Positions 4,411 to 23,892 of a stretch of DNA of 23,892 nucleotides are shown in pieces. Both the position numbers and the translations under genes were made by a program. The notes beneath the pieces are model-generated. The model did not search any database and was not told the DNA's origin. It saw nothing but the letters and a program-made list of their open reading frames with translations. Source of the DNA: a virus; the IMG/VR virus record IMGVR_UViG_3300047667_000722, positions 1 to 23,892 of that record; one strand, given 5' to 3'. How positions within the stretch are numbered: position 1 is the first letter of the stretch; the number at the start of each line of letters is the position of its first letter.

Positions 4411-4610
4411 GACAACGACTCCGCGGTGACTTTAGCGGCTAGCGCGACCATCTCGGCGCAACGATTGCGAAGCTCGTCGTTAGTCTCAAGTTGTGCGACT
4501 AGCGTTGAAAAGCTGATCCCTGATTTGTCGGATAACAAGCGGATCGCGTCGCCAAGTGCTAAGGCTTGAAAAGCTGGACTTGCTGCTACTGCTAATGGGG
4601 TGAGGTTCAT
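4404..4610 (-). CDS. Small hypothetical protein
   Basis: A 68-residue helical protein starting at ATG 4610, chosen because an AAAGGG ribosome site lies 10 or so bases upstream and a promoter lies just before that; the longer open frame would read through the promoter. The sequence is rich in A and L with a short S-G-I-S-F-S-T-L-V-A-Q-L segment that could be a helix-turn-helix-like hairpin, but nothing diagnostic. It overlaps the SLOG gene start by 7 bases. Function unknown. Confidence 0.6.
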   Translation of the reverse strand: MNLTPLAVAASPAFQALALGDAIRLLSDKSGISFSTLVAQLETNDELRNRCAEMVALAAKVTAESLSC

Positions 4611-4619
4611 GTCGTTTTT

Positions 4620-4680
4620 GCCCTTTCGTTTAGTTAGTAAGGCTATTATGCACGCGTGCGCGTTATAGCGCAAGCGTTAT
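4620..4680 (-). repeat. Direct repeat b, downstream copy (gene-end plus promoter leader)
   Basis: A 61-base stretch that matches 5607-5667 at 52 of 61 positions by hand count. It carries the promoter and ribosome site for the 68-residue gene. Read in the appropriate frame on the minus strand it encodes A-C-A-I-T-R-T-R-A-stop, which resembles the end of the winged-helix gene (A-C-T-I-A-R-N-H-A-Q-stop) located 1 kb upstream, so it is a relic copy of that gene's 3' end. Confidence 0.8.
4645..4673 (-). promoter_or_regulatory. Promoter copy 2 with tandem operator-like repeats
   Basis: On the minus strand TTGCGC (4673-4668), a 17-base spacer and CATAAT (4650-4645) lie upstream of ATG 4610. Two related 11-mers, TGCGCTATAAC starting at 4672 and TGCATAATAGC starting at 4652, are exactly 20 bases apart, so a dimeric repressor could contact the -35 and -10 regions from one helix face. 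The whole leader is a diverged copy of 5607-5667. Confidence 0.6.
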
Positions 4681-4683
4681 TTT

Positions 4684-5442
4684 TTAATTAATTTCACGAC
4701 TCCAGCCAATCGCGATCAGCTCTTTGGGTCCCAAGCCTTTGGCGAGGTCGGCGCGCATCGTTTCGGCTAACGAGCTTTTGAGCTTCTCGGCTTGTACCAT
4801 GCCGTGGATCTCGTCCTCCGAGTTGTACCAAAAGACGATCCCCCGATCGAGGTGCAACACTTCGACCTCAACGCCGTCAAGGATTACGGTCTGCCCAGCT
4901 TGCGGGAACGGTTTCGCGCTTTCGACCTTTGGGCGGTAAATATCGCCCGCGCTACAGGACCAAACGCGATGGAATATAGTGATCTCTTGTTCAAAGTGTA
5001 CCCCCGTGATCCGAAGTTCTTCCAGTAGGTTAAAACGTTGAAGCCGATCTAGGTCCGCCCCATTAGCCTCATAAAGAAAGCCGTCGACGCTTATTTTTAC
5101 AAGAGGTTTTGGGGAGGGGTGCGCTCTTAGCTCGAAGGGCATTTCGTTTATGGTAATAATTGTGGTCGGGTCTTGCTGGAGATCAAGCTTTCGGCTGTAG
5201 GTGCCGTTTTCGTCATACTGCCAAACCCGATCAAGTACCGTGACTTGGTGAGGGAGAGGGCGCTTATTGTCAAGCCAGCGGAACGTTAGACGGTGCGCTT
5301 TTTTAGGCGCCACCATGTGCAGGCGCTTATTGTCGTCAACGTTGTACGACGTGCCCTCTATGATTACCGCGGCCGGCGTAAGGCCTGGCAGAGAGCCGCG
5401 CGCGGTAAGTTTAAACTCGGTGCCATTTATAAAGATGTTCAT
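4684..5442 (-). CDS. Hypothetical beta-rich protein with an internal repeat
   Basis: A 252-residue protein with many beta-type strands and no signal or membrane segment. Two segments align by eye: V-T-V-L-D-R-V-W-Q-Y-D followed by G-T-Y-S-R-K, and I-T-I-F-H-R-V-W-S-C-S followed by D-I-Y-R-P-K about 85 residues later. Each is followed by a further strand pair (T-I-I-T-I-N-E-M-P-F-E-L and T-V-I-L-D-G-V-E-V-E-V). The protein is therefore probably two or three repeats of one small beta domain. The start at ATG 5442 has a GGAGGG ribosome site and an ATGA overlap with the DUF1391 gene. With that gene it is enclosed by direct repeats. Function unknown. Confidence 0.65.
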   Translation of the reverse strand: MNIFINGTEFKLTARGSLPGLTPAAVIIEGTSYNVDDNKRLHMVAPKKAHRLTFRWLDNKRPLPHQVTVLDRVWQYDENGTYSRKLDLQQDPTTIITINEMPFELRAHPSPKPLVKISVDGFLYEANGADLDRLQRFNLLEELRITGVHFEQEITIFHRVWSCSAGDIYRPKVESAKPFPQAGQTVILDGVEVEVLHLDRGIVFWYNSEDEIHGMVQAEKLKSSLAETMRADLAKGLGPKELIAIGWSREIN

Positions 5443-5600
5443 GCCGCATCCCTCCGATCTAGCCAGCGACGCGCGCCCGCTTCGGTCTTGAAGGTTTTAG
5501 AAGCGGAGTACGTAAGCGCCAAGAAAGTGCCGTCGTTTTGTGGAAAAACACCACGCGATAAGCTCTCGTTGTTGCCTAGGTCTAAAGTTTCGTTTTTCAT
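5439..5600 (-). CDS. DUF1391-family small phage protein (YdfA/YdaF-like)
   Basis: A 53-residue protein starting at ATG 5600, after an AAAGGGCG ribosome site and its own promoter. It begins with L-D-L-G-N-N-E-S-L-S-R-G-V-F-P and ends with S-K-T-F-K-T-E-A-G-A-R-R-W-L-D-R. From memory this is nearly the whole DUF1391 signature, as in the E. coli Rac and Qin prophage proteins of about the same length. Function of the family is unknown; members sit in early or immunity regions of lambdoid prophages. The gene together with the following beta protein sits between two copies of a duplicated junction, which suggests it arrived as a cassette. Confidence 0.85.
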   Translation of the reverse strand: MKNETLDLGNNESLSRGVFPQNDGTFLALTYSASKTFKTEAGARRWLDRRDAA

Positions 5601-5606
5601 TTTGTC

Positions 5607-5667
5607 GCCCTTTCGTTTAGTTAGTACGGCTATTGTGCATGGTTGCGCGCTATTGTGCAAGCTTTAT
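5607..5667 (-). repeat. Direct repeat b, upstream copy
   Basis: Partner of 4620-4680 (52 of 61 bases the same by hand count). This copy contains the true 3' end and stop codon (5630) of the winged-helix gene, plus the promoter and ribosome site used by the DUF1391 gene. Confidence 0.8.
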
Positions 5668-5911
5668 ATAAAAAGAATTTACCACCGGTCGGATCGTCTT
5701 TCTGCTCTCGCGTTAGGTAGCCCTTTGATCGGCATTTCTCCAAAGTCGCGAAGGCGCTCTGGACGCTCGTGTCGTAGCGCTTAGCGATGATCGCCGTGGT
5801 GACGGGAGAGACGGCCGCGGACAGTACGATCGCCGCTTGGCGCTTGCTTAACAGCAGTTCGCGGGCGGTTTCGGGGTGTAACAGTATGTAACGTCTTATT
5901 TGTTCCGTCAT
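5630..5911 (-). CDS. Small winged-helix DNA-binding protein
   Basis: A 93-residue protein. After a short N-terminal helix, residues about 30-85 read as a winged helix: V-S-P-V-T-T-A-I-I-A-K-R-Y-D-T-S-V-Q-S (turn and recognition helix), A-F-A-T-L-E-K-C-R-S-K-G-Y-L (second helix), then a wing of T-R-E-Q-K-D-D-P-T-G-G-K-F-F-L-Y. This is MarR/ArsR-like in shape, but no family is certain. It starts in an ATGA overlap with the primase-helicase stop and has an AGGAG site. Its 3' end overlaps a promoter with operator-like repeats, so it could regulate that promoter; this is a guess from position. Confidence 0.7.
   Translation of the reverse strand: MTEQIRRYILLHPETARELLLSKRQAAIVLSAAVSPVTTAIIAKRYDTSVQSAFATLEKCRSKGYLTREQKDDPTGGKFFLYKACTIARNHAQ
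5632..5660 (-). promoter_or_regulatory. Promoter copy 1 with tandem operator-like repeats
   Basis: On the minus strand TTGCAC (5660-5655), a 17-base spacer and CACAAT (5637-5632) precede the DUF1391 start at 5600. The 11-mer TGCACAATAGC occurs twice, beginning at 5659 and 5639, exactly 20 bases apart and overlapping both promoter boxes. The -35 half is also inside an imperfect palindrome TTGC-N10-GCAA. The promoter overlaps the last codons of the winged-helix gene. Confidence 0.6.
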
Positions 5912-8661
5912 TTGTCAAAAGCTCCTATTATTTTGATCCCATCGTATCCAGTCGATACGGTCCCGTTGATCTTAATGCTTCCGTTAGCGCGTACCGGCGT
6001 GCCGAGTAGGGTCCGTTTAAACGAGCGTAAAAAACTATTACGGCCCGGTAACTTGATCCCCGCGTCCATACAGTACAGCCGATACGCCTCATACACCGCC
6101 GCGGAGTGGCACCGGTGATCGTTCCCCACTTCGCAGCGCTCCGCGATAAATTCGCGTAATGGCTGATTAGCGTCTCGCATGTCGGTTTCAGCTTCTCGGG
6201 TAGTGGCGGGCGTTGTAAAGCGCTTTGTGTGTAACAGTCGGATAAGGCCTTCAAGCGCCCACATCGCCACGCCTTCGGCCTCAGTTTTTAAACGTTCTGT
6301 TAAAGTGGTGTCTTCAATGCCCTCAAACGAGCGATCGAAGTGTAGGACGTGCAAACGGTTAGAGCTTGCGCCGCTGTCGTCAATAAGCGTCGGGACGCCA
6401 TTACAGCCGATCAACATCTTGCAATTAGGGCGCCCGACCCACGGGTCTTGATTGTGCAAAAGTGGGATCGTTAGCTCCTCGTTGCTCGATATTTTGTTTA
6501 ACACTCCGATCGTCTCGGCTATAAGTTGGCGTTGTGGGGGCTTGGCTTCCTTGTCCATCATCACGTCATAATATCGAAAAGCGCTCTGGATCTTGCCGTC
6601 GCTCAGCTTAGCGAAGGTGGTCTGGCCACAAATAGCCATACCTAAGATCGATTGTATAACCTCAAGTATGACGCCTTTGCCCCCTCTGGTTACGCCGTCA
6701 AAAGCTATAGACTTTTGGATCCCTAGGCTATCGCGGACCATTGTCCAGCCGATGATCTCTCGCAGTAGCGCGATCCGCTCGGCCCCGTCAGCACTTCCGC
6801 CAAAAATTCGCCCGAGAAACTCAAACCACTCAGGACACAATGCCTTCGGGTTAAAAGCGGTTGACAGCGTGCCAGTGTTGCGGTTGTGCGGGTGGTGCGG
6901 CGCTAGGCTTCCATCGGCGGGATCAAACACTCCATTACTAAAATACACAAGGCGGTCGCGTGCGGCGGCGGGGCTTGAAGGCGCTAGGATTTTAAGAGCG
7001 GCCACGGTGCCCGACACGTTTGGCGTCTTGCTTTGTCCGGGGTGGAGCGCTAGGTAAGTCAAAAGCTTTAACCGGTCTTCGTCTACACGGTCCCAGCTTA
7101 TGCCCGACCACCAGCGGATCGTCCCGTCAATCGTCGCTAACCTCCCTTGGAACACTTCTTTGAGCATCATGTAGGCGTTGTCGCCATGATCTCCGCTTGC
7201 GCCGGGGATCCGTTTGCTAGGGATCTGGTTTACGTGCACCACCTCAGGCAACGGGACCACTAGGCCCTCGTGTTTGGCTTTGGCCGGCGACTCTAAGAGC
7301 TTACGGACTGCAGGCGTTAACACGCCCGCGGCTTTAAGTTGCGCGGTCAGTTCTGCTAGTAAGAGTGCGCGTTGTAACTCGTTCCCTCCTTCGTCCTCAA
7401 TACGAGTTAGTATCCCCTCGGTACGCCCAGTGTCACTTCCAAACTCTAGGATCGTATCTTTGAGCCTTATCGTTTGCTCGGGCGCAACAGCGGTCCGCGC
7501 AAACGCTTTCGCGGCGTCAATACCTAGGGAAAACGTCCGATCACCGTGCGCCCGGCTGAATATGTTCGGTTGCCCATCCAAATGGATGATCGCGACGACA
7601 GCGCCGCCACGGTAGTCAGGCTCCAACGGATCTAAACACTTGCGGCCGTGGTACGTGTTGCGATCCGCTAACATTTTTTCGACTGTTACGGTCGTCTTAT
7701 CGTCTAAGTGGATCGGGTAGTCACCACAAAGCACGCTATGGGAGTCAGCAACGTTTAGCAAGTCGGCCGCTTGCTCTGGAGTGATCCCCCAGTCTTTAGC
7801 CTTAGTGTGGGCATACTCAGTGCGAACGCTTGCAGCCTCCCCGGTTGCGTCGTGCTTAGCGCGCGCGACCAGCTCAAACCATGCCCGATCCTCAGCGTCG
7901 GTCAGGTCTGGGATCGCTTGCGTAGTGTCTACCGGTGGCGCAGGGTTTATCATTGCCGGGGTAGGGCGTCGCACTAGTCCAGGACCACATATCGCACCGG
8001 CCGCAAAGTCTAGGCGGCTTGGTTGCCACACGCTCCCGTCAATAGCTGATCGCGTAAGCAGTGAGCCGCTAGACGAGACCTCAATGCGGCCAAAGCCGGC
8101 CAACCATAGGCGCTTGAACAGTACTTCGCCCGCCCGTTTGATGTCGGTCGCGCGTTTGACGTGAAAATATACGCGCTGGCCCGATACGCCGATCAGTTGC
8201 TCACCGGTCGTCGTGTCAATTATGCAACTAGACGCACTAGGGCGCCAAGCCCAGCCCCCCGCAAAGAGCAAAGGCGCAGCGGTGGCGAGTTGTGCGATCA
8301 AATGCTCCCGGCTAAGCGGCGTTTGGCCCTTATCGGGATCGTAATCCAGCATAAACACGCCGTCGCCCTTACCCCAGCTAAAAAACTTATCAGAACGCGC
8401 AACGGCTCCAGGCGTCTTGCTTAAGTCGTCGGCGCGCACAACGGCCACATCGGGCAGATCGCAAACGCCATACCCTACAGCCTGGGAGGGCGCGAGACTA
8501 TCAAGCAGGCTTACCAGATCCGTTACGTTCGCAACGTCCACGCACTCGGCGCGCCCCTTGCTCATGTTCGCACTAGTAGACGTGGTCAGCTTGCCGGCTT
8601 GTAAGTCTATACGTTTAGATAGGACTTGCGGCTTTTCGGACGTGTAGCGCGTTAGAAGCAT
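5908..8661 (-). CDS. Primase-helicase (AEP-type primase plus SF3/D5-type helicase)
   Basis: A 917-residue protein, the largest in the window, and the probable replication initiator/helicase. The N-terminal third looks like an archaeo-eukaryotic primase: an acidic metal-binding motif F-M-L-D-Y-D-P-D at 103-110, followed by a basic segment and a S-S-S-G-S-L-x-T-R-S pattern. The C-terminal third is a superfamily 3 helicase: a Walker A variant G-V-T-R-G-G-K-G (656-663), Walker B near Y-Y-D-V-M-M-D-K-E (about 697-705) and motif C near M-L-I-G-C-N (749-754), ending in a winged helix. Glycine replaces the usual S/T after the Walker A lysine. It overlaps the M15 gene by 10 bases. No separate DNA polymerase is present, so the phage probably uses the host enzyme. 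Confidence 0.88.
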   Translation of the reverse strand: MLLTRYTSEKPQVLSKRIDLQAGKLTTSTSANMSKGRAECVDVANVTDLVSLLDSLAPSQAVGYGVCDLPDVAVVRADDLSKTPGAVARSDKFFSWGKGDGVFMLDYDPDKGQTPLSREHLIAQLATAAPLLFAGGWAWRPSASSCIIDTTTGEQLIGVSGQRVYFHVKRATDIKRAGEVLFKRLWLAGFGRIEVSSSGSLLTRSAIDGSVWQPSRLDFAAGAICGPGLVRRPTPAMINPAPPVDTTQAIPDLTDAEDRAWFELVARAKHDATGEAASVRTEYAHTKAKDWGITPEQAADLLNVADSHSVLCGDYPIHLDDKTTVTVEKMLADRNTYHGRKCLDPLEPDYRGGAVVAIIHLDGQPNIFSRAHGDRTFSLGIDAAKAFARTAVAPEQTIRLKDTILEFGSDTGRTEGILTRIEDEGGNELQRALLLAELTAQLKAAGVLTPAVRKLLESPAKAKHEGLVVPLPEVVHVNQIPSKRIPGASGDHGDNAYMMLKEVFQGRLATIDGTIRWWSGISWDRVDEDRLKLLTYLALHPGQSKTPNVSGTVAALKILAPSSPAAARDRLVYFSNGVFDPADGSLAPHHPHNRNTGTLSTAFNPKALCPEWFEFLGRIFGGSADGAERIALLREIIGWTMVRDSLGIQKSIAFDGVTRGGKGVILEVIQSILGMAICGQTTFAKLSDGKIQSAFRYYDVMMDKEAKPPQRQLIAETIGVLNKISSNEELTIPLLHNQDPWVGRPNCKMLIGCNGVPTLIDDSGASSNRLHVLHFDRSFEGIEDTTLTERLKTEAEGVAMWALEGLIRLLHTKRFTTPATTREAETDMRDANQPLREFIAERCEVGNDHRCHSAAVYEAYRLYCMDAGIKLPGRNSFLRSFKRTLLGTPVRANGSIKINGTVSTGYDGIKIIGAFDK

Positions 8662-9068
8662 TCTAAGTGTGCACCGTCAAAAATACTCGTGAAGTTGCCA
8701 CCCCATTTCCATTTCAGATCAAGCGAGTCCGCGGCCTCAGCGAAGCACATAGCGATCAAAGCTAAGTTGCCCGCGTCGTAGTTAGCGGCCCCGTCAATGT
8801 ATGCGAAAATGTCGACCGCCATACCGCTTTGGTGCGTGCTTTCGACTATGTACCCGTCGCGGTACGTTATGATCGGGCCGGGCGTCGTGCGGCCTTGATG
8901 CCATTTGACACTTTGCTCAATGGCCGTGCGGCGTCCTGAGCTGATCCCAAAATCTAAGGGGTCGATATGGCGCCGGTTCATTATGCCGATCGCCTTAAGG
9001 CAAACCTCTTGCATTGGCGCTTCTAGTGTTGCGATGTTCGCTAGGCTTGTCTTACCGTATTTAATCAT
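8652..9068 (-). CDS. M15-family peptidase, probable endolysin
   Basis: A 138-residue protein starting at ATG 9068 with an AGGGAGA ribosome site and an ATGA overlap with the upstream gene; the longer open frame upstream is unlikely. The zinc site is clear: S-G-R-R-T at 44-48, S-T-H-Q-S-G-M-A-V-D (H79 and D86), W-G-G-N-F at 122-126 and D-G-A-H-L-E (H134). This is the D-Ala-D-Ala carboxypeptidase / L-Ala-D-Glu endopeptidase fold used by many small phage endolysins. It has no signal peptide, so it would need a holin; a two-segment membrane peptide lies about 1 kb upstream in the same operon. Its place directly before the replication gene is odd for a lysis gene. Confidence 0.87.
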   Translation of the reverse strand: MIKYGKTSLANIATLEAPMQEVCLKAIGIMNRRHIDPLDFGISSGRRTAIEQSVKWHQGRTTPGPIITYRDGYIVESTHQSGMAVDIFAYIDGAANYDAGNLALIAMCFAEAADSLDLKWKWGGNFTSIFDGAHLECF

Positions 9069-9478
9069 GTGTCGGTTCTCCCTAAAGTTAACAACGCAAA
9101 CTCTTTGAGGTCTTCCCAGCGCTGCCCCGCCTCGTCTGAATCTTGCTCGCAATCGTCCGCGTCAAGTATATTGCCCGCCGTTTTAACGATTATTGTTTTA
9201 AGATTGGCGATCTTTTCATCTCGTTCAATAACACGGATCCCCTCCTCTTTAGCGTTTAAATCGTCTTCTTCCTTAGCCTCGCGCATTGCTAGGATCTCGG
9301 CTTCAAGCGTGGCGATACTCTCGCAGGCGAAAAGGACCATGTCAGGGCAACCGGTCAACGCCCCGACCTTAAAGTTATTACCTTCGATCGACAGCCCGTC
9401 TGCAGTAGCGGCAACCGTCGCCATTTTTTGCATAAAGTCTAATTTGTATTTACCTTCAGATTTACGAACATTTGACAT
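9065..9478 (-). CDS. Hypothetical coiled-coil protein
   Basis: A 137-residue protein. The N-terminal 50 residues end in a segment with A-L-T-G-C-P-D-M-V-L-F-A, and residues about 50-100 are a long charged helix (heptad-like A-T-L-E-A-E-I-L-A-M-R-E-A-K-E) likely to be a coiled coil. The C-terminus is very acidic. The start at ATG 9478 has an AGGAGC site inside a repeated leader. Its first residues, M-S-N-V-R-K-S-E-G-K-Y, resemble the first residues of the neighbouring cargo gene (M-S-D-V-K-G-K-Y), a sign of the duplicated junction. Function unknown. Confidence 0.65.
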   Translation of the reverse strand: MSNVRKSEGKYKLDFMQKMATVAATADGLSIEGNNFKVGALTGCPDMVLFACESIATLEAEILAMREAKEEDDLNAKEEGIRVIERDEKIANLKTIIVKTAGNILDADDCEQDSDEAGQRWEDLKEFALLTLGRTDT

Positions 9479-9508
9479 TATTTTAAGCTCCTAGGCTTTA
9501 AGAGTTGG
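9473..9508 (-). repeat. Direct repeat a, downstream copy
   Basis: A 36-base sequence matching 9925-9960 with two mismatches. Read on the minus strand it encodes Q-L-L-K-P-R-S-L-K-stop, a relic of the end of the zinc-ribbon gene (Q-L-L-K-P-G-G-L-K-stop), and then the start of the coiled-coil gene. Confidence 0.85.
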
Positions 9509-9531
9509 TTTCTTTATGTGTGATGGTATTT

Positions 9532-9930
9532 TCATCGCATACTTACCTCATTTTTTGATTTGTACAATTTATTAAAATTAACAACAAAATCAGACTCGGT
9601 TAAGCAATTATTTCCCTCCCAGTATGACCCGCCTGGACTGTACGGTGAGCCATAAAAACTGCAATGTGTTGCCTTTAACATTCTAATTACGGACTTAAAA
9701 TCAACGTCGTTATTTTCAACAAAAATCAAATAGCCCGATTTGGTTGGAAATGCCCACTGGTTTGATCCTGTTTTTACGCAGTGTTGCATCTTCCTGTTAG
9801 AGCATTTTACTATTCGAGAAGGGATTATTTTCCCCGCCCGTAAAAACTCGCCCCTACGCTTGATGTCCGCAATGCTTTTAAATTCATTATAGATAACATT
9901 CATCGGATACTTACCCTTTACGTCTGACAT
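9532..9930 (-). CDS. AT-rich orphan cargo gene
   Basis: A 132-residue basic protein if started at ATG 9930. An alternative start at ATG 9903 (M-N-V-I-Y-N-E-F) has its own AAAGGG site and would drop nine residues that look like a leftover of the coiled-coil gene's start. The gene is clearly more AT-rich than its neighbours, with many AAA, AAT and ATT codons, which suggests recent arrival. It has about three cysteines, a basic middle (R-I-V-K-C-S-N-R-K) and an aromatic C-terminal half with S-F-Y-G-S-P-Y. I recognise no family. It sits exactly between two copies of direct repeat a. Confidence 0.6.
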   Translation of the reverse strand: MSDVKGKYPMNVIYNEFKSIADIKRRGEFLRAGKIIPSRIVKCSNRKMQHCVKTGSNQWAFPTKSGYLIFVENNDVDFKSVIRMLKATHCSFYGSPYSPGGSYWEGNNCLTESDFVVNFNKLYKSKNEVSMR

Positions 9931-9960
9931 TATTTTAAGCCCCCAGGCTTTAAGAGTTGG
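9925..9960 (-). repeat. Direct repeat a, upstream copy
   Basis: Partner of 9473-9508 (34 of 36 bases the same). This copy holds the real 3' end of the zinc-ribbon gene and the start codon region at 9930. Confidence 0.85.
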
Positions 9961-10130
9961 CCGGCGCAAGCCGGGCAGGGTGCGAAGGCGACCCAGTCGT
10001 CGTCCACGTAGACGAACAGGTCTAAGCGTGGATGCCCCACGACAGCGCCGTACCATTGGTCGTCGCCAGCAAAGGGCAGCTTTTCGGCGTCAAGTACGGT
10101 CGCGCAGTTGTCGCAGCTAATTAGGACCAC
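9930..10130 (-). CDS. Small zinc-ribbon-like protein
   Basis: A 66-residue protein with two cysteine pairs, C-D-N-C near residue 6 and C-P-A-C near residue 52, spaced as in a one-zinc ribbon. The middle is beta-type and acidic (L-D-L-F-V-Y-V-D-D-D-W). It starts at GTG 10130, since no in-frame ATG is available and GGAGA lies eight or so bases upstream. The start overlaps the membrane-peptide gene by 14 bases. Its last nine codons lie in direct repeat a. Possible roles include DNA or protein binding; none is proven. Confidence 0.65.
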   Translation of the reverse strand: MVLISCDNCATVLDAEKLPFAGDDQWYGAVVGHPRLDLFVYVDDDWVAFAPCPACAGQLLKPGGLK

Positions 10131-10278
10131 GGAACATTCTCCAAGTTGTGCGGGTCATACTTATGAGTAAATAGGCCACAATAACAGACAGGACGGCCGG
10201 CGTCGTGTCGTCTGATAAAATGGACAGTATAAGCGCTAAGGCTATCGCGACTTTCGCGAGGCGTAAAGGTGGTTTCAT
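10117..10278 (-). CDS. Small membrane protein, holin-like
   Basis: A 53-residue open frame running from ATG 10278 to TAG 10117. It has a basic N-terminus (M-K-P-P-L-R-L-A-K), a first hydrophobic stretch (V-A-I-A-L-A-L-I-L-S-I-L, about 10-21), a short turn with D-D-T-T-P, and a second hydrophobic stretch (A-V-L-S-V-I-V-A-Y-L-L-I-S, 28-40), then a basic tail. Two short membrane spans joined by a tight turn suit a class II holin, and an endolysin-like gene follows in the operon. The start overlaps the previous stop as TGATG, supporting coupled translation. Holin function is inference; a generic small membrane peptide is the alternative. Confidence 0.6.
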   Translation of the reverse strand: MKPPLRLAKVAIALALILSILSDDTTPAVLSVIVAYLLISMTRTTWRMFRGPN

Positions 10279-10469
10279 CAGTAATCTATCCCTTTAAGTT
10301 GAATGAAGTGCGTAACTAATGGATCGTTTTGGCATTGTAGTAAATAGTCGGCTTTATCTTTAAAATGAAAGAGCGTTTTACCTTCGCCGTCCTGTACAAG
10401 CACGGGCCAAAGAAGGCCGAAATCTACCCCTTGATATTTGTTTATATCTTCATCTAAAAAACTCGGCAT
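10278..10469 (-). CDS. Small hypothetical protein, first gene of the leftward operon
   Basis: A 63-residue protein beginning M-P-S-F-L-D-E-D. It has an excellent ribosome site (AAGGAGG, about nine bases upstream) and lies about 60 bases downstream of the predicted leftward start site, so it should be the first and possibly best-translated gene of the operon. Residues are mixed aromatic and acidic with no known motif. Function unknown. Confidence 0.65.
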   Translation of the reverse strand: MPSFLDEDINKYQGVDFGLLWPVLVQDGEGKTLFHFKDKADYLLQCQNDPLVTHFIQLKGIDY

Positions 10470-10535
10470 TAAATACGCCCTCCTTCGTTAAAACGTGCGA
10501 TTGTTTCGCCGTGGGTCTATAGTGTAATTGTAAGT

Positions 10536-10564
10536 AAATTAGGCCTTATTTTCTCAATTGTCAA
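10536..10564 (-). promoter_or_regulatory. Main leftward promoter
   Basis: On the minus strand TTGACA (10564-10559), a 17-base spacer and TAATTT (10541-10536). The spacer shares the core GAAAATAAG with the promoter at 179-207, and both are preceded by TTAG or ATAG. It points into the leftward operon, whose first start codon is at 10469. Confidence 0.7.
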
Positions 10565-10575
10565 CTAATTTACGA

Positions 10576-10701
10576 GGTGATCCAAAAAAACTACCAGGCG
10601 CTAAAACGCTACAACACAAAAAAACGTGCTATAGTGCGCGCAGTAGCGGGGTAGTAGTTATTCGTCGTGGTAGTTTTTAAATCGGCGCTCAGGGGATCAC
10701 C
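10576..10701. repeat. Two-block inverted repeat in the divergent control region
   Basis: Outer arms are GGTGATCC (10576-10583) and GGATCACC (10694-10701). Inner arms are AAAAACTACCA (10586-10596) and TGGTAGTTTTT (10668-10678), both perfect. On the right side 15 extra bases separate the two blocks. A third AAAAACTACC lies at 10848-10857, just before the first virion gene. Between the arms are CGCTAAAACGCTA (a short direct repeat) and CGTGCTATAGTGCG, which resembles the operator-like motif at 4645-4673. Likely a regulator-binding region, replication origin or recombination site; the sequence alone does not decide. Confidence 0.6.
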
Positions 10702-10737
10702 GGAGGCCATAAGCTCAAAGGCCTGTAGTTCTTTTAG

Positions 10738-10767
10738 TTGTTTTTATTTAAAAAAGTAAAGTATATA
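10738..10767 (+). promoter_or_regulatory. Candidate rightward promoter for the virion operon
   Basis: TTGTTT (10738-10743), an 18-base spacer and TATATA (10762-10767) on the plus strand, about 100 bases before the first virion gene. An alternative -10, TATAGT at 10630-10635, lies within the operator-like motif but has a poor -35. A late promoter recognised by a phage factor would not look like either. Confidence 0.35.
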
Positions 10768-10868
10768 AAAGAAAGGTAAAAGAGAGAGAAGAGGAGAGCG
10801 TATAGACGCGTAAGAGAGATATAGAAAGATAATAGGAAAAAAAAACTAAAAACTACCTTTTGGAGGCG
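10747..10868 (+). promoter_or_regulatory. Purine-rich leader before the virion operon
   Basis: About 120 bases that are almost entirely A and G on the plus strand, with only a small hairpin-like GCGTATAGACGC (10798-10809) breaking it, ending in a GGAGG ribosome site at 10862 or so. Such a leader would be poorly structured in mRNA and favour strong translation; as DNA it is a polypurine-polypyrimidine tract. No gene is present here on either strand. Confidence 0.5.
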
Positions 10869-10870
10869 AC

Positions 10871-11575
10871 ATGCTAGACATCGACACGACGGACGCGAAA
10901 GCGTTAGAAAGACACCTAAGAGCAATAAAATCTAAAGCGATCCCGTACGCGATCCGCTTTACTCAAAACGCCTTAGCGTTCAAAGGTATGGAGCTCGCAA
11001 AAGAGACGGTAAAAAACAACATGATTACGCGAAATAAGTTCGCTATTCAAAGTATTCAGTTTGATAAAGCTAGACCCGGACAGAATTACTCGGTTTTAGG
11101 CTCAACACAGGGATTCATGAAAGATCAGGAATTCGGCGGCGTGGTGCGTGATCCTACCATCACAACTCAATACGCATCAGGCGAGGGAGTGGGCAGTGGT
11201 ACGCCACGTAAGCGGTTAGCGCGGGGTGATAACATTCTTAGGAAGATCAGGCTAAGAAAGGGCAGTGGTAAGGGCAAGAGCCGCAAACAGCGCAACCTAA
11301 TCAAAATCATTGACGCGGTCAACACCGGCAAAAAGTACATATTTCTAGACACAGACAAGAGTGAGGGGATCTTTAAGGTCGTCGGAGGTAAAAAGAATTC
11401 TAAGAAGGGGGGGCCTAAGGGGGCTAAACTCCGAATGGTACACCGCACAGACATTAAGACCGTGACTATTAGGCCTAACCCATGGCTACAGCCCGCCGTT
11501 GAAAAGCTTCGGCCGCTAGCACAAGGGATCTACGCAAAACAACTGCAGCGACAGATCAAAAACGTCAGGCTGTAG
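10871..11575 (+). CDS. Minor tail protein Z-like (gpZ / tail completion family)
   Basis: A 234-residue very basic protein. The N-terminus (L-E-R-H-L-R-A-I-K, then A-I-P-Y-A-I-R-F-T-Q-N-A-L-A-F-K) matches the opening of lambda gpZ-type proteins, which begin with a helix, a conserved proline and 'A..A.N..A'. The centre is a K/R/G-rich region, and the C-terminal part has V-T-I-R-P-N-P-W-L-Q-P-A followed by a helical Q-L-Q-R-Q-I-K, the typical family ending. gpZ helps complete the tail and connect it to the head. Here it lies upstream of terminase instead of after the capsid gene, an unusual order. A GGAGG site precedes ATG 10871. Family call is by pattern, moderately sure. Confidence 0.65.
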   Translation: MLDIDTTDAKALERHLRAIKSKAIPYAIRFTQNALAFKGMELAKETVKNNMITRNKFAIQSIQFDKARPGQNYSVLGSTQGFMKDQEFGGVVRDPTITTQYASGEGVGSGTPRKRLARGDNILRKIRLRKGSGKGKSRKQRNLIKIIDAVNTGKKYIFLDTDKSEGIFKVVGGKKNSKKGGPKGAKLRMVHRTDIKTVTIRPNPWLQPAVEKLRPLAQGIYAKQLQRQIKNVRL

Positions 11576-11771
11576 GCCGCGCCGCGCGTGCCCTGCAGGG
11601 CTCACCGCAACAGAGAGCGCGGCTCCTGCTCTCCTGCTACCAGATAAAAAAGGTACTGTGGAGGCCCTCCCCCCGCCATGCCGTTTTGATTCAGCCGCGC
11701 GCCCCTCGCCCAAATTCTGACTTTTGCGTGGCTATTGCACAGGGAGTCTAGCGCGTGGTAGCATCCAGCCC
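11576..11771 (+). other. Non-coding GC-rich gap upstream of terminase; candidate cos region
   Basis: This gap of about 196 bases has no convincing gene. It holds a perfect 12-base palindrome GCCCTGCAGGGC (11590-11601), a direct repeat of CTCCTGCT (near 11631), a C-rich run and several GC-rich dyads. In lambda-type phages the packaging site cos lies just before the small terminase gene, so this is where a cos site would be expected. No cosN can be pinned from one sequence. Confidence 0.4.
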
Positions 11772-12611
11772 ATGCAAAAAATCGTCAGTAAATCCAAGTT
11801 TAGCCAGCTAGCAGGCGTTAACCCTTCTACAGTGACACGGGTCTGCAAAACGATCCTAGCGGCTGCAGTAGTGGGGAAACAGATAGACAGCGCCCACCCC
11901 GACGCGGTCGCTTACCTTGAAAAGCAGCAGCACGCAGCGACGCCGCCCGCAGCGCCAGGACTTGATCCGCTATACCAAGAGGCGATCGAGTCTTGCGCTA
12001 GTCTTAACCGGTGGACGCCCTCAAATATTCAGCGCTCTTGTGGCGTTGGATATAACAGGGCGGTAGCGATATTTGAAACTATGAAGCGCCTCGGCGTGGT
12101 CCCGAACGTCGTCGACGGGGAAGAGTTCACCCAAACGATAAAAACTTTTATAGAAAAAACACGGAAGCCCGTCGGCGCGGCTGCAGTCAAAGAAGCAAAG
12201 AAGCACGCGCACCATGAAGACCGGCTGATCGAGATACCGGAAGACATTCAAGAATTTGCGGACATGACGCTAAGAAATTTGATCGGCCAGTTCGGAACGG
12301 ACTCCCGCCTTGTTGATTGGCTAAAATCCACTCAGTTGATCGAAGCGATAAACGAGAAACGCTTGAAGAACGCGCAAACAAAAGGCGAGCTAGTGTCGCG
12401 CCACTTGGTAAAGATTGCGATCATTGAGCCCATAGAGTCGGCGCATATCAAACTTATGACCGACGGCGCAAAGACGATCGCCAGGCGTGCGGCTGCAATG
12501 GCTCAAGCAGGAAAGCCAGTGGCCGAGATCGAAGCGTTCGCAATAGATCAGATCTCCTCGTTCATCAAACCAGTAAAAGCGAAAGTCGATCGGGCACTTC
12601 GCAATGTTTGA
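11772..12611 (+). CDS. terS: Terminase small subunit with FtsK-gamma-like domain
   Basis: A 279-residue protein from ATG 11772. An in-frame TTG at 11724 exists, but the ATG fits the HTH start. Residues 6-50 resemble the lambda Nu1-type DNA-binding domain: K-S-K-F-S-Q-L-A-G-V-N-P-S-T-V-T-R, then I-D-S-A-H-P-D-A-V-A-Y-L. Residues about 65-111 read like the FtsK gamma winged helix: D-P-L-Y-Q-E-A, then S-N-I-Q-R-S-C-G-V-G-Y-N-R-A, then M-K-R-L-G-V-V. In FtsK this domain reads polar DNA motifs. The rest is helical and charged, probably for oligomerisation and TerL binding. It overlaps TerL by 8 bases, which supports the terminase call. It would recognise the packaging site. Confidence 0.75.
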   Translation: MQKIVSKSKFSQLAGVNPSTVTRVCKTILAAAVVGKQIDSAHPDAVAYLEKQQHAATPPAAPGLDPLYQEAIESCASLNRWTPSNIQRSCGVGYNRAVAIFETMKRLGVVPNVVDGEEFTQTIKTFIEKTRKPVGAAAVKEAKKHAHHEDRLIEIPEDIQEFADMTLRNLIGQFGTDSRLVDWLKSTQLIEAINEKRLKNAQTKGELVSRHLVKIAIIEPIESAHIKLMTDGAKTIARRAAAMAQAGKPVAEIEAFAIDQISSFIKPVKAKVDRALRNV

Positions 12612-14592
12612 GATTATCGACATTGGTCGCGACTGGGTGGCCGAAGAGATAAGCGGGCTAACCGATACGATCACCCACATCTCGCCGTCAGTGTTTAACG
12701 AGCAAACCCGATACTTGCCGGAGTCTGTGACATCGATCCCCGGTTTTATTCGCTACGACGTTAATCCGTTTATGAGAGAGATCATAGATTGCGCAGACAT
12801 AGAAAGCTCAGTCCGTGAAGTCAATCTTATGAAAGGCGTTCAGATCACGTACTCGACCGCTCTGGAATCCATTGTGCTCTATTGTGCGGCTAAAGTGCGA
12901 ACGTTGCCCATGATGTACATGACGGCGGACAAAGACCTCGCAGCGGCGCGCATAGAAAACAATTTTATACCGATGTTTAACCAGTCCGACCTCGGCCACA
13001 TAATACGATCAAGCGACGAGGGGAACTCGCGCAAGACGGGTAAGACTGCAAACCATTTGCAATTTGCCGGCGGCGCTTACCTCGTCCCGTTCGGGGCGAT
13101 CAACGCTTCAAAAATGCGGTCTTTCTCGATCGCGGTAATGCTTAAAGACGAGATCGACGCATGGCCGGACACCGTCGGGCGAGGTGGCCGCGACGGTTGC
13201 CCCGATAAGCTCAGCGACGGCCGACTAAAAGGGTACTGGGAACGGCGGAAGATTTTTCGCGGATCAACTCCTTTGGAGTGGAACAACTCAAAAATTTTCT
13301 ATCAATACAAGCTAGGCGATCAACGTCAATATATGGTTTCATGTCGTGCGTGTAAATTTTCTCAGGTTTTAAAATGGGAGACCCTAGACAAAGAAACGGG
13401 AGTCGTGGGTGGCTTTACCTGGAAGATTGTCGATGGGACTCTGGACCACGAGTCGGTCCGCTATCATTGTCAGAAGTGCGGCCACGCGCACGAAGAACAC
13501 GACAAAGAGGTTCTATTTTCGGCGGAGCACGGCGCGCACTGGAAACCGACGGCGAAACCCTCCGAACCGGGGATCAGGTCTTACCATTTGCCGGCGATGT
13601 ATTCGCCCATCGGAATGGCGCCGTGGTACTCGCTCGTCGCGGATTATATCCAAGCGTACGATCGAGATACCCGCAAAGTAAAAGATATTACAAAGTATCG
13701 CGTTTTTTACAATAACGTTTTAGCTATGCCGTTCAAGACTACGGGCGCAAAGATTCAATTTACTCAAGTGTCCGCGCACCGTCGATCGGCGTATATGCTC
13801 GGGCAAGTACCGAACAAGTACGCGACCGAGTACGCGGGATCACCGATTCTATTTTTAATGTGCACGGTCGACGTTCACAAATCAAACTTAGCGGTTAGCG
13901 TTTTCGGGTGGTGCCAAGACTCCAAGCCGTTTTTGATAGATTACGATCGCTATGAGGCGGAGGACTGCACAGACATCGACAGCCCGGTATGGGGTCGTGT
14001 GCAAGAACTAGTCGAAGAAAAGATATACACGGCGGACGACGGGCGCCAGTATGGTATTTTAATGACGTTAATCGACGCGGGCTACGCTAATGATACCGTG
14101 ACGTCGTTTTGCTCGGGCTATGCCTCGGGAGTCTATCCGATCCTCGGTAGGGACCGCGCAGCAAAAAACCAGACGATCAAAGAATTTGCGGAGTTTGCAA
14201 CGCAAGCGGGGACGACGGGATTTAGGATCCTAGTCGACCACTATAAAGATCGGATGTCTCCCGTTTTGCGCAGGGTATGGAGCGAGGACGACGGGCCGCA
14301 AAAAGCGTACCACTTTAACGCGCCGATCGACGTGACGGACAAACAGCTTAAAGAATTGACGGTCGAGAGCATCAAAGAGAAGATCGACCCGAACGGAAAC
14401 GCGAGTTATTCGTGGGAGCGCCCGCAAGGCGTACCGAACGAGCTTTGGGATCTTCTCGGCTATGGCTATGCGGCGGTGGAGATCTACGCGTGGCAAGTGT
14501 GTATACAGCACTTTAAGTTAGAGACGATCGACTGGGAGCAGTTCTGGACGTGGGCCCTTAACAATCTAGTTGACCCGATTAAAACTAGCTAG
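12604..14592 (+). CDS. terL: Terminase large subunit (lambda gpA family)
   Basis: A 662-residue packaging motor and nuclease, close to lambda gpA (about 640). A gpA-type deviant Walker A lies at K-G-V-Q-I-T-Y-S-T (77-85), Walker B at M-L-K-D-E-I-D (179-185), and the two-pair zinc motif at C247/C250 and C289/C292. The nuclease begins at C-T-V-D-V-H with D423 and continues with L-I-D-Y-D and L-I-D-A-G-Y. ATP drives DNA into the prohead; the nuclease cuts at the packaging site. The last codons, A-L-N-N-L-V-D-P-I-K-T-S-stop, occur again as a non-coding relic 335 bases downstream. Start overlaps the terS stop. Confidence 0.93.
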   Translation: MFEIIDIGRDWVAEEISGLTDTITHISPSVFNEQTRYLPESVTSIPGFIRYDVNPFMREIIDCADIESSVREVNLMKGVQITYSTALESIVLYCAAKVRTLPMMYMTADKDLAAARIENNFIPMFNQSDLGHIIRSSDEGNSRKTGKTANHLQFAGGAYLVPFGAINASKMRSFSIAVMLKDEIDAWPDTVGRGGRDGCPDKLSDGRLKGYWERRKIFRGSTPLEWNNSKIFYQYKLGDQRQYMVSCRACKFSQVLKWETLDKETGVVGGFTWKIVDGTLDHESVRYHCQKCGHAHEEHDKEVLFSAEHGAHWKPTAKPSEPGIRSYHLPAMYSPIGMAPWYSLVADYIQAYDRDTRKVKDITKYRVFYNNVLAMPFKTTGAKIQFTQVSAHRRSAYMLGQVPNKYATEYAGSPILFLMCTVDVHKSNLAVSVFGWCQDSKPFLIDYDRYEAEDCTDIDSPVWGRVQELVEEKIYTADDGRQYGILMTLIDAGYANDTVTSFCSGYASGVYPILGRDRAAKNQTIKEFAEFATQAGTTGFRILVDHYKDRMSPVLRRVWSEDDGPQKAYHFNAPIDVTDKQLKELTVESIKEKIDPNGNASYSWERPQGVPNELWDLLGYGYAAVEIYAWQVCIQHFKLETIDWEQFWTWALNNLVDPIKTS

Positions 14593-14594
14593 TA
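14557..14594 (+). repeat. Direct repeat c, upstream copy (end of terL)
   Basis: A 38-base repeat matching 14892-14929 with three mismatches. This copy is the functional terL 3' end and stop codon, and also carries the -35 of the promoter for the PapB-like gene. Confidence 0.88.
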
Positions 14595-14598
14595 CGAT
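14570..14598 (+). promoter_or_regulatory. Candidate promoter for the PapB-like gene
   Basis: TTGACC (14570-14575), a 17-base spacer and TACGAT (14593-14598), overlapping the terL stop. The -35 lies within direct repeat c and the -10 just after it, so only this copy has a reasonable -10 (the downstream copy reads TAAGCT). An insert with its own promoter is typical of a moron gene. Confidence 0.5.
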
Positions 14599-14629
14599 AA
14601 TCAGAAATCAGTTAAGTGATGTTAAAAAA

Positions 14630-14896
14630 ATGATATACGCACTTGTACAAGGCCAAGAGTCCGCAGAACGTTTAAGCCTGCTTTTAGAACTAACCCGCAT
14701 AGACAGCGACGAAGTAAGACGGGCCTTACGGCAACACCTAACAGAAGGCATGAGCCTTAAGGACGCGCCCATACTTAATGGCATTAAGCAACAGAATTTT
14801 AATCGTTCGCTAAAACGGCTTAACGAGATAGCGGCCACGGTTGAGCAAATAAAAGAGATTGACTGGTCAATGTTTACCGGTAACACAGGCGCTTAA
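14630..14896 (+). CDS. PapB-family transcription regulator, inserted between terL and gpW-like gene
   Basis: An 88-residue protein from ATG 14630; an upstream TTG start would overlap terL and the promoter. It matches the PapB/FocB fimbrial regulator pattern from memory: R-L-S-L-L-L-E-L-T-R-I-D-S-D-E-V, then A-L-R-Q-H-L-T-E-G-M-S-L-K-D-A, then a helix-turn-helix with Q-Q-N-F-N-R-S-L-K-R-L-N. PapB proteins bind AT-rich minor grooves cooperatively and control phase-variable fimbriae. In a phage it may regulate late genes or alter host surface genes; both are inference. No virion gene would be expected here. Its stop codon uses bases of direct repeat c, so the gene and the repeat boundary coincide. 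Confidence 0.8.
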   Translation: MIYALVQGQESAERLSLLLELTRIDSDEVRRALRQHLTEGMSLKDAPILNGIKQQNFNRSLKRLNEIAATVEQIKEIDWSMFTGNTGA

Positions 14897-14929
14897 TAAT
14901 CTAGTTGACCCTGTTAAAACTAGCTAGTA
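14892..14929 (+). repeat. Direct repeat c, downstream copy
   Basis: Partner of 14557-14594 (35 of 38 bases the same). In the terL reading frame it encodes A-L-N-N-L-V-D-P-V-K-T-S-stop with one conservative change, although it is no longer attached to terL. It is therefore a relic of another terL allele's end. Confidence 0.88.
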
Positions 14930-14962
14930 AGCTAGCAGTAATTAATAAATTAGGGCCGCATA

Positions 14963-15220
14963 ATGAATCGTACTTTCTTACAAGCTCGGATCGTCGCGAC
15001 TCAAGAGCAGATCGTAGCGTTCGAAACCGCCTTGACGGCCTTCGCAGATAACGGCGCGCTGCAGTCGTACACGATAGACACAAGCCAAACAACGCAAACG
15101 GTCACGCGCGCGAACCTTACGCAATTACGCAACACAGTCACGTCGTTATACAATCAATGTGCTACTTTGGAAGTTAGGCTAAACGGTGGCGGCTCGACTC
15201 AGGTGATCCCCGGATGGTAA
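14963..15220 (+). CDS. gpW-like head-tail joining protein
   Basis: An 85-residue protein between terminase and portal, the place of lambda gpW. It has two helical segments (A-T-Q-E-Q-I-V-A-F-E-T-A-L and N-L-T-Q-L-R-N-T-V-T-S-L-Y-N-Q) around a beta hairpin with S-Y-T-I-D-T-S-Q-T-T-Q-T-V-T-R. This is the alpha-beta-beta-alpha pattern of gpW and of small DUF6148-type phage proteins. gpW plugs the portal after packaging and prepares it for tail joining. The stop overlaps the portal start by 7 bases. Family assignment by size, pattern and position. Confidence 0.7.
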   Translation: MNRTFLQARIVATQEQIVAFETALTAFADNGALQSYTIDTSQTTQTVTRANLTQLRNTVTSLYNQCATLEVRLNGGGSTQVIPGW

Positions 15221-16896
15221 AAACTAAGCCAAAATTTAGGGCAAATTTAGATGGAAGTTTCGCGCACATATCGGGACCGCTCCCGCTATCGGTTGATAAT
15301 TTGACGCCGAGCGCCTACGCGGGCCAGAATTACTCGTCGCCGTGGGAAAATTCGATTTATGACGGCGGGAAGTTCGCCGGCGGTTTCGGTCTTACACAAA
15401 TCCAAGACGTTGACTACTGGACACTTCGCGCCAGGTCTTCGCAGCTATTTAACGAAAACATGTACGCCCGCGGTATCGTTCGACGGTTAGTGACTAACGA
15501 GATCAACACCGGACTTATGCCCGAAGCCTGCCCAGACGAGGCGGTGATCGGCGTGCCCGAGGAAAGTCTAAACGACTGGACGGAATCAACGGAGACCCGC
15601 TTCGGTATTTGGGGAAAAAACTCGGACGTATGCGATTTTAAAAAGAAACACACTTGGGGGGCGTTACAGCGCCTCGCGCGTATGGAGGCCCTAGTAAGTG
15701 GGGACGTTCTAGTAGTCGTGAGACAATCACAACAGACTAAACTCCCCATGATCCAACTGATCAGCGGTAGCAAAGTACGGACGCCGCTCGGCGGATCGGA
15801 GGGTTTACGCAAAGGCAACAAGATCATACACGGCGTCGAAGTCGATAGCGTCGGCCGCGTCGCGGCGCACTGGGTAAAGCAGGACGACGGAAATTTTAAA
15901 CGGCTCGCGGCGTATGGTGAAAAGACCGGGCGGAAGATCTCATGGTTGATCTATGGAACAGATAAAAGACTAGACGAATTGCGCGGTCAGCCGTTGCTCT
16001 CGATGGTAATGCAGTCTTTAAAAGAGATCGATCGCTACCGAGACTCAACACAGAGAAAAGCCGTTAATAATTCTATGCTCGCTATGTTTATTCGAAAAGG
16101 CGAGGACAAAATGGGGACCTTACCGGTAACGGGGGGCGCAGTTCGCCGGGGTCAAGTCATAACAAACGACACGGACGGCACTAAAAGGACATTTAACCAA
16201 GCCAGCCAGATACCGGGCGCAGTAATTGAAGAACTGCAGACCGGAGAGGAGCCAGTACTCTTGGGCGGACAGGGTACGGACGTCAACTTCGGAACGTTTG
16301 AAGAATCGATCATTCAAGCGGTCGCTTGGGCTTTAGAGATCCCGCCAGAAATTTTGCGCCTAACATTTTCAAACAATTACAGCGCAAGCCAAGCAGCTAT
16401 AAACGAATTTAAGATCGCGATCAATCGTACTTGGGGAGACTTCGGGGAGACCTTTTGTTCTCCGATTTATATTGAGTGGTTGATCAGTGAGACCTTGCTA
16501 CAGAACATTAATGCGCCGGGCTTTTTGCAGGCGTGGAGAAACCCGAGAGAATACGCGGTCTTTGGCGCCTGGACTGCGACGGATTGGTACGGGTCGATCA
16601 AACCCTCAACCGATATGTTAAAGCAGGCTAAAGGCTCTAAAATCCTAACGGACGAGGGCTGGTCTAATAACGCCCGCGAGGCCCGTCTCCTTACTGGCAC
16701 AAAATTCAGCAAAAATATGAAACGGATTAAGAGAGAAAACGAACTCAAAGTCGAGGCCGCCCGCCCGCTTGCAGAATTTAAGCAAGAATTTGGCGAACAA
16801 GTGGACGAGGAGCCGATCAACGCATTGGATAACATGGAAGAACTCGAAGCTATGCTGGACGACTATCTAGAAGAAAAGGGATTAAGCCAATGCTAG
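15214..16896 (+). CDS. Portal protein (lambda gpB family)
   Basis: A 560-residue protein of normal family length (lambda gpB about 530). Family features include R-S-x-Q-L-F-N-E-N-M-Y-A-R-G-I-V-R-R near residues 74-91, the conserved N-T-G-L-M-P-E, the G-D-V-L-V-V-V segment, R-Y-R-D-S-T-Q-R-K-A-V-N-N-S, and the crown-adjacent E-I-P-P-E-I-L-R-L-T-F-S-N-N-Y-S-A-S. The ring of twelve copies forms the DNA entry pore. The C-terminal 60 residues are acidic and helical. The stop codon overlaps an ATG as ATGCTAG, which originally must have been the start of the next gene. That junction is now duplicated. Confidence 0.93.
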   Translation: MVKTKPKFRANLDGSFAHISGPLPLSVDNLTPSAYAGQNYSSPWENSIYDGGKFAGGFGLTQIQDVDYWTLRARSSQLFNENMYARGIVRRLVTNEINTGLMPEACPDEAVIGVPEESLNDWTESTETRFGIWGKNSDVCDFKKKHTWGALQRLARMEALVSGDVLVVVRQSQQTKLPMIQLISGSKVRTPLGGSEGLRKGNKIIHGVEVDSVGRVAAHWVKQDDGNFKRLAAYGEKTGRKISWLIYGTDKRLDELRGQPLLSMVMQSLKEIDRYRDSTQRKAVNNSMLAMFIRKGEDKMGTLPVTGGAVRRGQVITNDTDGTKRTFNQASQIPGAVIEELQTGEEPVLLGGQGTDVNFGTFEESIIQAVAWALEIPPEILRLTFSNNYSASQAAINEFKIAINRTWGDFGETFCSPIYIEWLISETLLQNINAPGFLQAWRNPREYAVFGAWTATDWYGSIKPSTDMLKQAKGSKILTDEGWSNNAREARLLTGTKFSKNMKRIKRENELKVEAARPLAEFKQEFGEQVDEEPINALDNMEELEAMLDDYLEEKGLSQC

Positions 16897-16910
16897 CTAA
16901 ACTAGTTAAG
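16871..16910 (+). repeat. Direct repeat d, upstream copy (portal end plus next-gene start)
   Basis: A 40-base repeat matching 16990-17029 with one mismatch, 119 bases apart. It holds the portal's last codons (E-K-G-L-S-Q-C-stop) and an ATG that begins M-L-A-K-L-V-K. Confidence 0.9.
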
Positions 16911-17015
16911 CCCCCTAAGGTCCTAACGTACGAACAGTCAAGGGCCTTCACCAGCACAAAATTTAACAAAAATGTAAAACGGATTAAGCAAGAAAAGGGA
17001 TCAAGCCAATGCTAG
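16890..17015 (+). pseudogene. Relic of a second portal 3' end
   Basis: From ATG 16890 a 41-codon frame begins M-L-A-K-L-V-K like the next gene. It then switches to K-V-L-T-Y-E-Q and T-S-T-K-F-N-K-N-V-K-R-I-K-Q, ending E-K-G-S-S-Q-C-stop. The second part aligns with the portal's own C-terminal region (K-I-L-T-D-E-G, then T-G-T-K-F-S-K-N-M-K-R-I-K-R, and E-K-G-L-S-Q-C) but lacks about 45 residues between them. It is a shortened piece of a diverged portal allele, probably not functional, although it could be translated as a small peptide. Confidence 0.8.
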
Positions 17016-17029
17016 CTAAACTAGTTAAG
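16990..17029 (+). repeat. Direct repeat d, downstream copy
   Basis: Partner of 16871-16910 (39 of 40 bases the same). This copy supplies the ribosome site (AAGGGA) and start codon (17009) of the fibre gene. Confidence 0.9.
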
Positions 17030-18625: not shown

Positions 18626-18677
18626 CGAACATAAAATTAGGGGGTAGTATGCAGAACATAACAAGAGGTTCAATTTT

Positions 18678-19838: not shown

Positions 19839-19845
19839 AGATACT

Positions 19846-20247: not shown

Positions 20248-20259
20248 GGAGCTTATAGC

Positions 20260-21357: not shown

Positions 21358-21372
21358 ACATTTAACATTAGA

Positions 21373-21398
21373 GCGCCCCTTTTTTAGGGGCCTTTTTT
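21373..21398 (+). terminator. Rho-independent terminator after the major capsid gene
   Basis: The stem GCCCC (21375-21379) pairs with GGGGC (21387-21391) around a T-rich loop and is followed by a run of six T residues (21393-21398). It lies 16 bases after the capsid stop and 17 before the next ATG. The stem is only five pairs, so read-through is likely, lowering but not stopping expression of the next genes. Confidence 0.75.
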
Positions 21399-21414
21399 AG
21401 GGCAAAAGAATATC

Positions 21415-21717: not shown

Positions 21718-21739
21718 CTTACATATAAAGGCGTAAATC

Positions 21740-22018: not shown

Positions 22019-22020
22019 AC

Positions 22021-23868: not shown

Positions 23869-23881
23869 CCTAGGGGGTACT

Positions 23882-23892
23882 ATGAAGACTAT
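23882..23892 (+). CDS. Start of a further gene (cut by window end)
   Basis: An ATG at 23882 follows a G-rich ribosome site (AGGGGGT) thirteen bases after the previous stop and encodes only M-K-T before the window ends. The leader TAGGGGGTACTATG closely resembles the one at 18638-18651. Product unknown. Confidence 0.45.

Follow-up and report, generated by a model that had tools for sequence, protein, structure and literature searches.

How a gene can enter a tight phage operon without harm to its neighbours is a long-standing question. It is raised at four gene junctions, J1 to J4, in a 23,892-nucleotide (nt) stretch of phage DNA (IMG/VR record IMGVR_UViG_3300047667_000722, positions 1 to 23,892; hereafter the window). 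At each of them the 3′ end of a gene had been noticed to occur twice, in three cases around additional genes, or cargo. The initial annotation proposed that a foreign copy of the neighbouring gene end comes in with the cargo. We find it probable that the pairs are duplicated junctions, in which putative start signals have been kept before both the cargo and the resident gene. Below, gene A is the gene upstream of a junction and gene B the resident gene downstream of it; contigs used for comparison carry L numbers.

Four close direct repeats lie at gene starts

We scanned the whole window for direct repeats with an ungapped score of at least 20 and a spacing of 60-1300 bp, making no use of the earlier coordinates. 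The scan returned exactly J1-J4; no other close direct repeats in the window are as strong, and 20 codon-block shuffles of the window contained no such repeats; all four pairs were thus re-found at the places first described. The J1 pair (4615-4680/5602-5667, 83% identity) and the J2 pair (9468-9508/9920-9960, 90%) are on the minus strand. The J3 pair (14553-14599/14888-14934, 87%) and the J4 pair (16871-16910/16990-17029, 98%, with a second piece at 16697-16739/16954-16996, 86%) are rightward. Every copy lies at or just upstream of a gene start. The C-terminal residues encoded by attached and detached copies are QLLKPGGLK and QLLKPRSLK, ALNNLVDPIKTS and ALNNLVDPVKTS, and EKGLSQC and EKGSSQC, each followed by a stop codon. 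The near-identity of these ends noted previously therefore stands, except at J1, where the resemblance is incidental (see below). The J2, J3 and J4 repeats include specific gene A codons and have no further copies elsewhere in the phage, and those at J2 and J4 also include codons of gene B.

The same phage is represented by a further contig, IMGVR_3300046534_000473 (L003; also L109), which is 99.96% identical to the window over positions 12522-23892 (11.4 kb). This contig also has the J3 and J4 pairs, which are therefore not an assembly artefact of one contig.

Among 45 non-redundant relatives (700 kb), five contigs together contained 11 junction-type pairs, and the window phage is thus not alone in having this architecture. 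The window is nevertheless rich in junction duplications, at about ten times the rate of its relatives: it has four pairs (five if J4 is split) versus 0.38 expected (Poisson P ~6e-4, clumping ignored). As the initial annotation had anticipated, relatives have empty, single-copy junctions at three of the sites (J2 in L099, J3 in most, J4 in all), and different cargo at the same junction was seen in other phages at the J3 site.

The terL-gpW junction is a shared insertion site

J3 lies between the large terminase gene (terL, GpA type, 12604-14592, plus strand) and a gene for a gpW-like head-tail adaptor (14963-15220, plus strand), both assigned by family matches. Copy 1 (14553-14599, plus strand) is the 3′ end of terL, encoding ALNNLVDPIKTS and a stop, and contains a promoter-like match, TTGACC-17-TACGAT. 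Copy 2 (14888-14934, plus strand) is a detached terL end preceding the gpW-like gene. The cargo between them encodes a PapB-like regulator (PF03333, phrog_10566; 14630-14896, plus strand) and has a G+C (GC) content of 43.4%, versus 51.3% for the window.

We compared this junction in about four dozen distinct relatives. Most are empty, commonly with TATACT just past the terL stop codon, and about a quarter have an insert; the states found are empty, PapB-like, T5orf172-domain and DHH-type. The terL-gpW junction is thus a natural insertion site common to many phages.

Two relatives have doubled ends here. In L009, a PapB-like gene (66% identical) is followed by a second terL-end/TATACT leader, and the stranded terL end next to gpW is closer to the terL ends of L033 (23) and L008 (22.5) than to that of L009 itself (13). 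The terL and portal trees of L009 conflict across the site, and L009 is only ~75% identical to L033 and L008, too diverged for crossover mapping. In L044, on a distant branch, ~95 nt of the terL end are doubled, with a ribosome site and ATGAAAA, around an open reading frame (ORF) of 84 amino acids, and the stranded terL copy encodes DEFWQFAESSENDELFGRLTLIKKG and a stop.

The J3 repeat was also considered as a wider mobile element and rejected as such, its exact pattern occurring in the window phage only. Flanking repeats were not found around the PapB relatives elsewhere (L114-L118), so PapB does not bring the repeats with it. Separately, a leader, AAATCAGTTAAGTGATGTTAAA, is kept before PapB-like genes in the window (14601-14629), in L009 (~2930-2953), in L114 (~2968-2990) and in L115. 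Retained in unrelated phage contexts, it is possibly an autoregulatory site.

Junctions J2 and J4

At J2, all on the minus strand, gene A encodes a zinc-ribbon-like small protein (phrog_35648; 9930-10130), and its end overlaps the following start (AAATAATG). Copy 1 (9893-9960) comprises the gene A 3′ end (QLLKPGGLK and stop), a ribosome site, and the start and first codons of the cargo (MSDVKGKYP); copy 2 (9440-9508) comprises the detached end (QLLKPRSLK and stop), a ribosome site, AGGAG, and the start of gene B (MSNVRKSEGKYK; gene B, 9065-9478). The repeat is longer than first noted: allowing a 9-nt gap, it takes in about ten codons of gene B (MSDV---KGKY versus MSNVRKSEGKY), and the cargo ORF (9532-9930) is fused in frame to this copy of the gene B start. 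The GC content of the cargo is 37.6% (9512-9915), again versus 51.3%. The ORF has no family matches, and a search for its relatives gave a single marginal local match. In L099, a relative in the left arm whose primase is 92% identical in protein sequence to that of the window, gene A directly overlaps a gene C at a single junction, with neither cargo nor gene B. The N-terminal half of gene B is kept in two unrelated phages (L111 and L112).

J4 follows the portal gene (15214-16896, plus strand, family match). There, portal and the start of the next gene are followed by a portal-end relic and then by the next gene itself, with no cargo. Copy 1 (16871-16910, plus strand) contains the portal end, a ribosome site, and the start and first seven codons of the downstream gene. 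It is followed by a C-terminal piece of portal with internal deletions (16911-17015, plus strand; KVLTYEQ...TKFNKNVKRIKQEKGSSQC and stop), whose end, with the true start of the downstream gene, forms copy 2 (16990-17029, plus strand). The relic is closest to the window's own portal gene. In every relative that has the downstream gene, portal overlaps it at a single junction, and the start of that gene is usually ~10 bases before the portal stop codon. The second portal end at J4 thus looks like a tandem copy that has decayed, in agreement with the portal relic first described there.

J1 is a dispersed promoter-and-leader-like module

J1 is of a different kind. Copy A (5602-5667, minus strand) consists of a promoter-like TTGCAC-17-CACAAT, a 5′ leader and a ribosome site, ACTAACTAAACGAAAGGGCGAC, before a DUF1391-family gene (PF07151, family match; 5439-5600, minus strand), and it overlaps the final codons of an ORF at 5630-5911. 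Copy B (4615-4680, minus strand) has TTGCGC-17-CATAAT and the leader before an ORF at 4404-4610. The other enclosed gene (4684-5442, minus strand) encodes a protein of 252 amino acids with an internal domain duplication. The module, TTGC, a 17-nt spacer and a CATAAT-like hexamer, followed by ACTAACTAAACGAAAGGGCGA and a start codon, occurs five times, twice in the window and three times in L099, at 35-48 bits versus 12.5 at the next-best place. L099 has both J1 copies at homologous places; its third copy, on the opposite strand, covers a helicase stop codon and stands ahead of an unrelated gene. The stop codon of the ORF upstream of copy A in L099 is the TAA within CATAAT, and the apparent C-terminal repeat at J1 arises because the frame of the upstream ORF extends into copy A. 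Judged by its sequence, J1 is therefore a dispersed promoter-and-leader-like module with no copied gene end. The leader AACTAAACGAAAGGGC also stands immediately 5′ of ATG in three unrelated phages; there the ribosome-site part alone recurs, and the promoter part does not. The enclosed genes differ between the window and L099, which has a single-domain homologue of the 252-amino-acid protein and another extra gene. This difference fits cargo exchange between fixed signals.

As observations in their own right, the two domain copies of the 252-amino-acid protein are weakly similar (E 0.001 mutually, 1e-9 to the L099 homologue), and another dispersed promoter-like repeat, TAGTTGACAA..GAAAATAA....TAATTTA (TTGACA-17-TAATTT), precedes leftward operons. 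It lies at 178-210 and 10535-10567 (minus strand) of the window, 1077-1109 and 10485-10517 of L099, and 9372 (minus strand) of L109.

Proposed origin of the duplicated junctions

We propose that, in this phage group, the signals from which a gene is started, namely its promoter or leader, its ribosome site and often its start codon, lie within or across the 3′ end of the preceding gene. Adding a gene between two neighbours would then be workable only if such signals remain before both newcomer and resident. The cargo would be served by copy 1 and the resident gene by copy 2. A piece of the upstream gene end that has no use of its own would come along, stranded because the signals overlap it and could not be copied without it. 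Under this proposal, J1 would be an older dispersed module, J2 and J3 local junctions doubled around a captured gene, and J4 a junction doubled without cargo. The doubling could arise by recombination between related phages, homologous inside gene A and illegitimate just upstream of the signals of gene B, or by local duplication of the junction with cargo landing later, and would be kept by selection for expression of both neighbours. That the repeats contain working start signals, like the route of insertion, is something that we infer.

Several results weigh against duplicated junctions with retained signals. A consensus promoter scan missed J1 and matched copy 1 of J3 alone, within chance frequency, and at none of the window sites can it be seen whether duplication or insertion came first. 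L041 and Shewanella phage SppYZU01 have a T5orf172/MUG113-domain gene at terL-gpW without a duplicated junction, so duplication is not required for insertion. Finally, the presence of PapB in both the window and L009 implies two or more changes on each of the two trees and may thus reflect parallel gains or losses.

The differences between copies bear on two more specific accounts. Free drift after local duplication should leave ~40-50% of differences synonymous. The observed fractions are 6/8 in L044, 3/4 at J3, 0/2 at J2 and 2/6 at J4; pooling L044 and J3 gives P 0.015-0.07 against local duplication, depending on transition bias. Since the fractions are unlike across sites, the sites may differ in origin. 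The first account is that cargo came with a related phage's copy of the gene end, the native end being stranded before gene B. The synonymous bias in L044 and J3, the better match of the stranded L009 end to the terL ends of other phages and the conflicting L009 trees all favour it. However, the numbers are small, the fractions at J2 and J4 do not favour it, all window copies are mutually closest among the loci compared, and J1, a dispersed module, does not fit, so as the sole mechanism we consider it rather unlikely. The arrival of a foreign gene end with cargo, as first proposed, thus finds some indirect support at terL-gpW (L009, L044 and the J3 codon bias) and none at the other sites. A more general form of this idea, in which the foreign end enters by a one-sided homologous crossover, the native end and its signals stay before the resident gene, and compact phages reuse the same sites for repeated gain and clean loss, seems to us doubtful.

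The second account is that the junction was duplicated in tandem first and cargo came later or never, J4 being a bare intermediate and J2 and J3 having gained genes since. The cargo-free tandem copy of the portal end with its deletions, the mutual closeness of the window copies, and the tandem duplication and internally duplicated 252-amino-acid protein of the same phage would be expected from this. Against it are the codon bias of L044 and of J3, the pattern seen in L009, and the fact that a bare duplicated terL-gpW junction was not found in the relatives compared, and we regard local duplication as rather improbable as a full explanation.

It is distinctly unlikely that the repeats are merely dispersed regulatory motifs, as in Cluster K phages, with a coincidental likeness to gene ends. 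This explanation holds for J1 and for the promoter-like repeat at 178/10535, and promoter-like repeats also occur in L040, L052 and L022, but J2-J4 are single-locus repeats in the phage and contain specific gene A codons (plus gene B codons at J2 and J4). Assembly error, which had been named as a possible refutation, and chance have a negligible probability, given that the copies differ by 2-17%, that shuffles yielded none, and that J3 and J4 recur in the second contig and J1 in L099.

The view of these sites as cargo-insertion junctions is borne out by empty relatives and by other cargo, but it does not extend to J1, a leader module, or to J4, which is cargo-free. The suggestion that cargo is later excised or swapped through the repeats was not supported. 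The cargo swap at terL-gpW between L024 and SppYZU01/L041 ran on flanking homology, without repeats.

Comparison with known systems

T4-type promoter/stem-loop (PeSL) cassettes are mobile, short regulatory repeats at the boundaries of small variable genes, and may aid shuffling. The window pairs share with them short repeats at gene boundaries around variable genes, but most are two copies of a specific local junction with upstream codons. PeSL-type stem-loop terminators were not found on the transcribed strand at J2-J4; J1 has matches on the opposite strand, and counts are within those of shuffles. Among the cases examined, the most PeSL-like is the terL-gpW insert of L022 (2940-4540). Here two leftward two-gene units stand in tandem, and the promoter-like element, the hairpin and the ribosome site are the same in both. 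L040 has TTGAC(A/G)GTGACGTGTCACCGGCTATACTTA, promoter-like with a palindromic core, four times before small early ORFs (3070, 3747, 4946 and 5352), and promoter-like elements are likewise repeated in L052. The junction architecture of the window recurs in the early region of L007, where a stop-start overlap, IKETL-stop/MSRETG, is duplicated on either side of an ORF of 140 amino acids.

The SAS/ESAS repeats of Cluster K mycobacteriophages occupy the ribosome-site position before starts, sometimes with an upstream stop codon, and SAS has a 13-bp consensus and 11-19 copies per genome (PMC3203893). They are the best parallel for J1, whose leader precedes ATG at five sites in two phages and in three unrelated phages. 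J2-J4, in contrast, are two-copy local repeats of 40-68 nt, and J1 has two copies in the window and three in L099. The 17-bp repeats of Cluster O are palindromic, number more than 30 per genome and are not tied to starts; Catdawg has two of them with ~550 bp in between, a segment missing from the other four genomes, in which the repeat is single (PMC4351075). This one-copy/two-copy pattern is the same as at the window junctions.

Classical lambdoid morons carry their own promoter and terminator. The J2 and J3 cargo resembles them in lying between genes that are adjacent in relatives and in its deviating GC content; the difference is that here the resident junction is duplicated. No homing-type nuclease domain was found in the J2 or J3 cargo (the gene in L041 at the J3 site has a T5orf172/MUG113 domain), no transposase was found among the cargo genes, and no inverted-repeat pair bounds the cargo. 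J2-J4 are unlike the published patterns because the repeated unit is a specific local gene junction. From their sequences, the duplicated junctions are best described as a variant form of phage moron and regulatory-cassette mosaicism, in which the local junction as repeat unit is new.

The phage and its relatives

The window, a linear fragment, comes from a small, marine-type tailed phage of the lambda-packaging type, with a GpA terminase, a lambda-type portal, a gpW-like adaptor, a D5-type primase and an N4/N6 methylase. Among named relatives, its terminase comes closest to those of Shewanella phage SppYZU01 (67%) and Acinetobacter phage Scuro (60%), and a search of named phages for near-identity to the window gave no matches. 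Of two TerL scans of bacterial genomes for a host, one gave no match and the other two metagenome-assembled contigs. The terminase has a long branch (0.45 versus 0.18 for portal) and a C-terminal tail unlike those of its relatives, so the terL-gpW segment may differ in ancestry from portal. The gene after portal (17009-18625, plus strand, family match) has collagen-like KDGVSP repeats in its N-terminal region, joined to a C-terminal ice-binding-like domain (PF11999). In L109, a glutamine-rich protein contains a 163-bp in-frame tandem duplication (6542-6704/6707-6869, 99% identical).

Implications for gene entry into phage operons

These loci give the entry of genes into phage operons a countable footprint, namely a doubled junction and a stranded gene end. 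The reading of the pairs as duplicated junctions makes a testable prediction: the repeat should mark the position of the start signals of the downstream gene. If the foreign-end route is true, the stranded scrap would be a record of the phage's earlier gene end.

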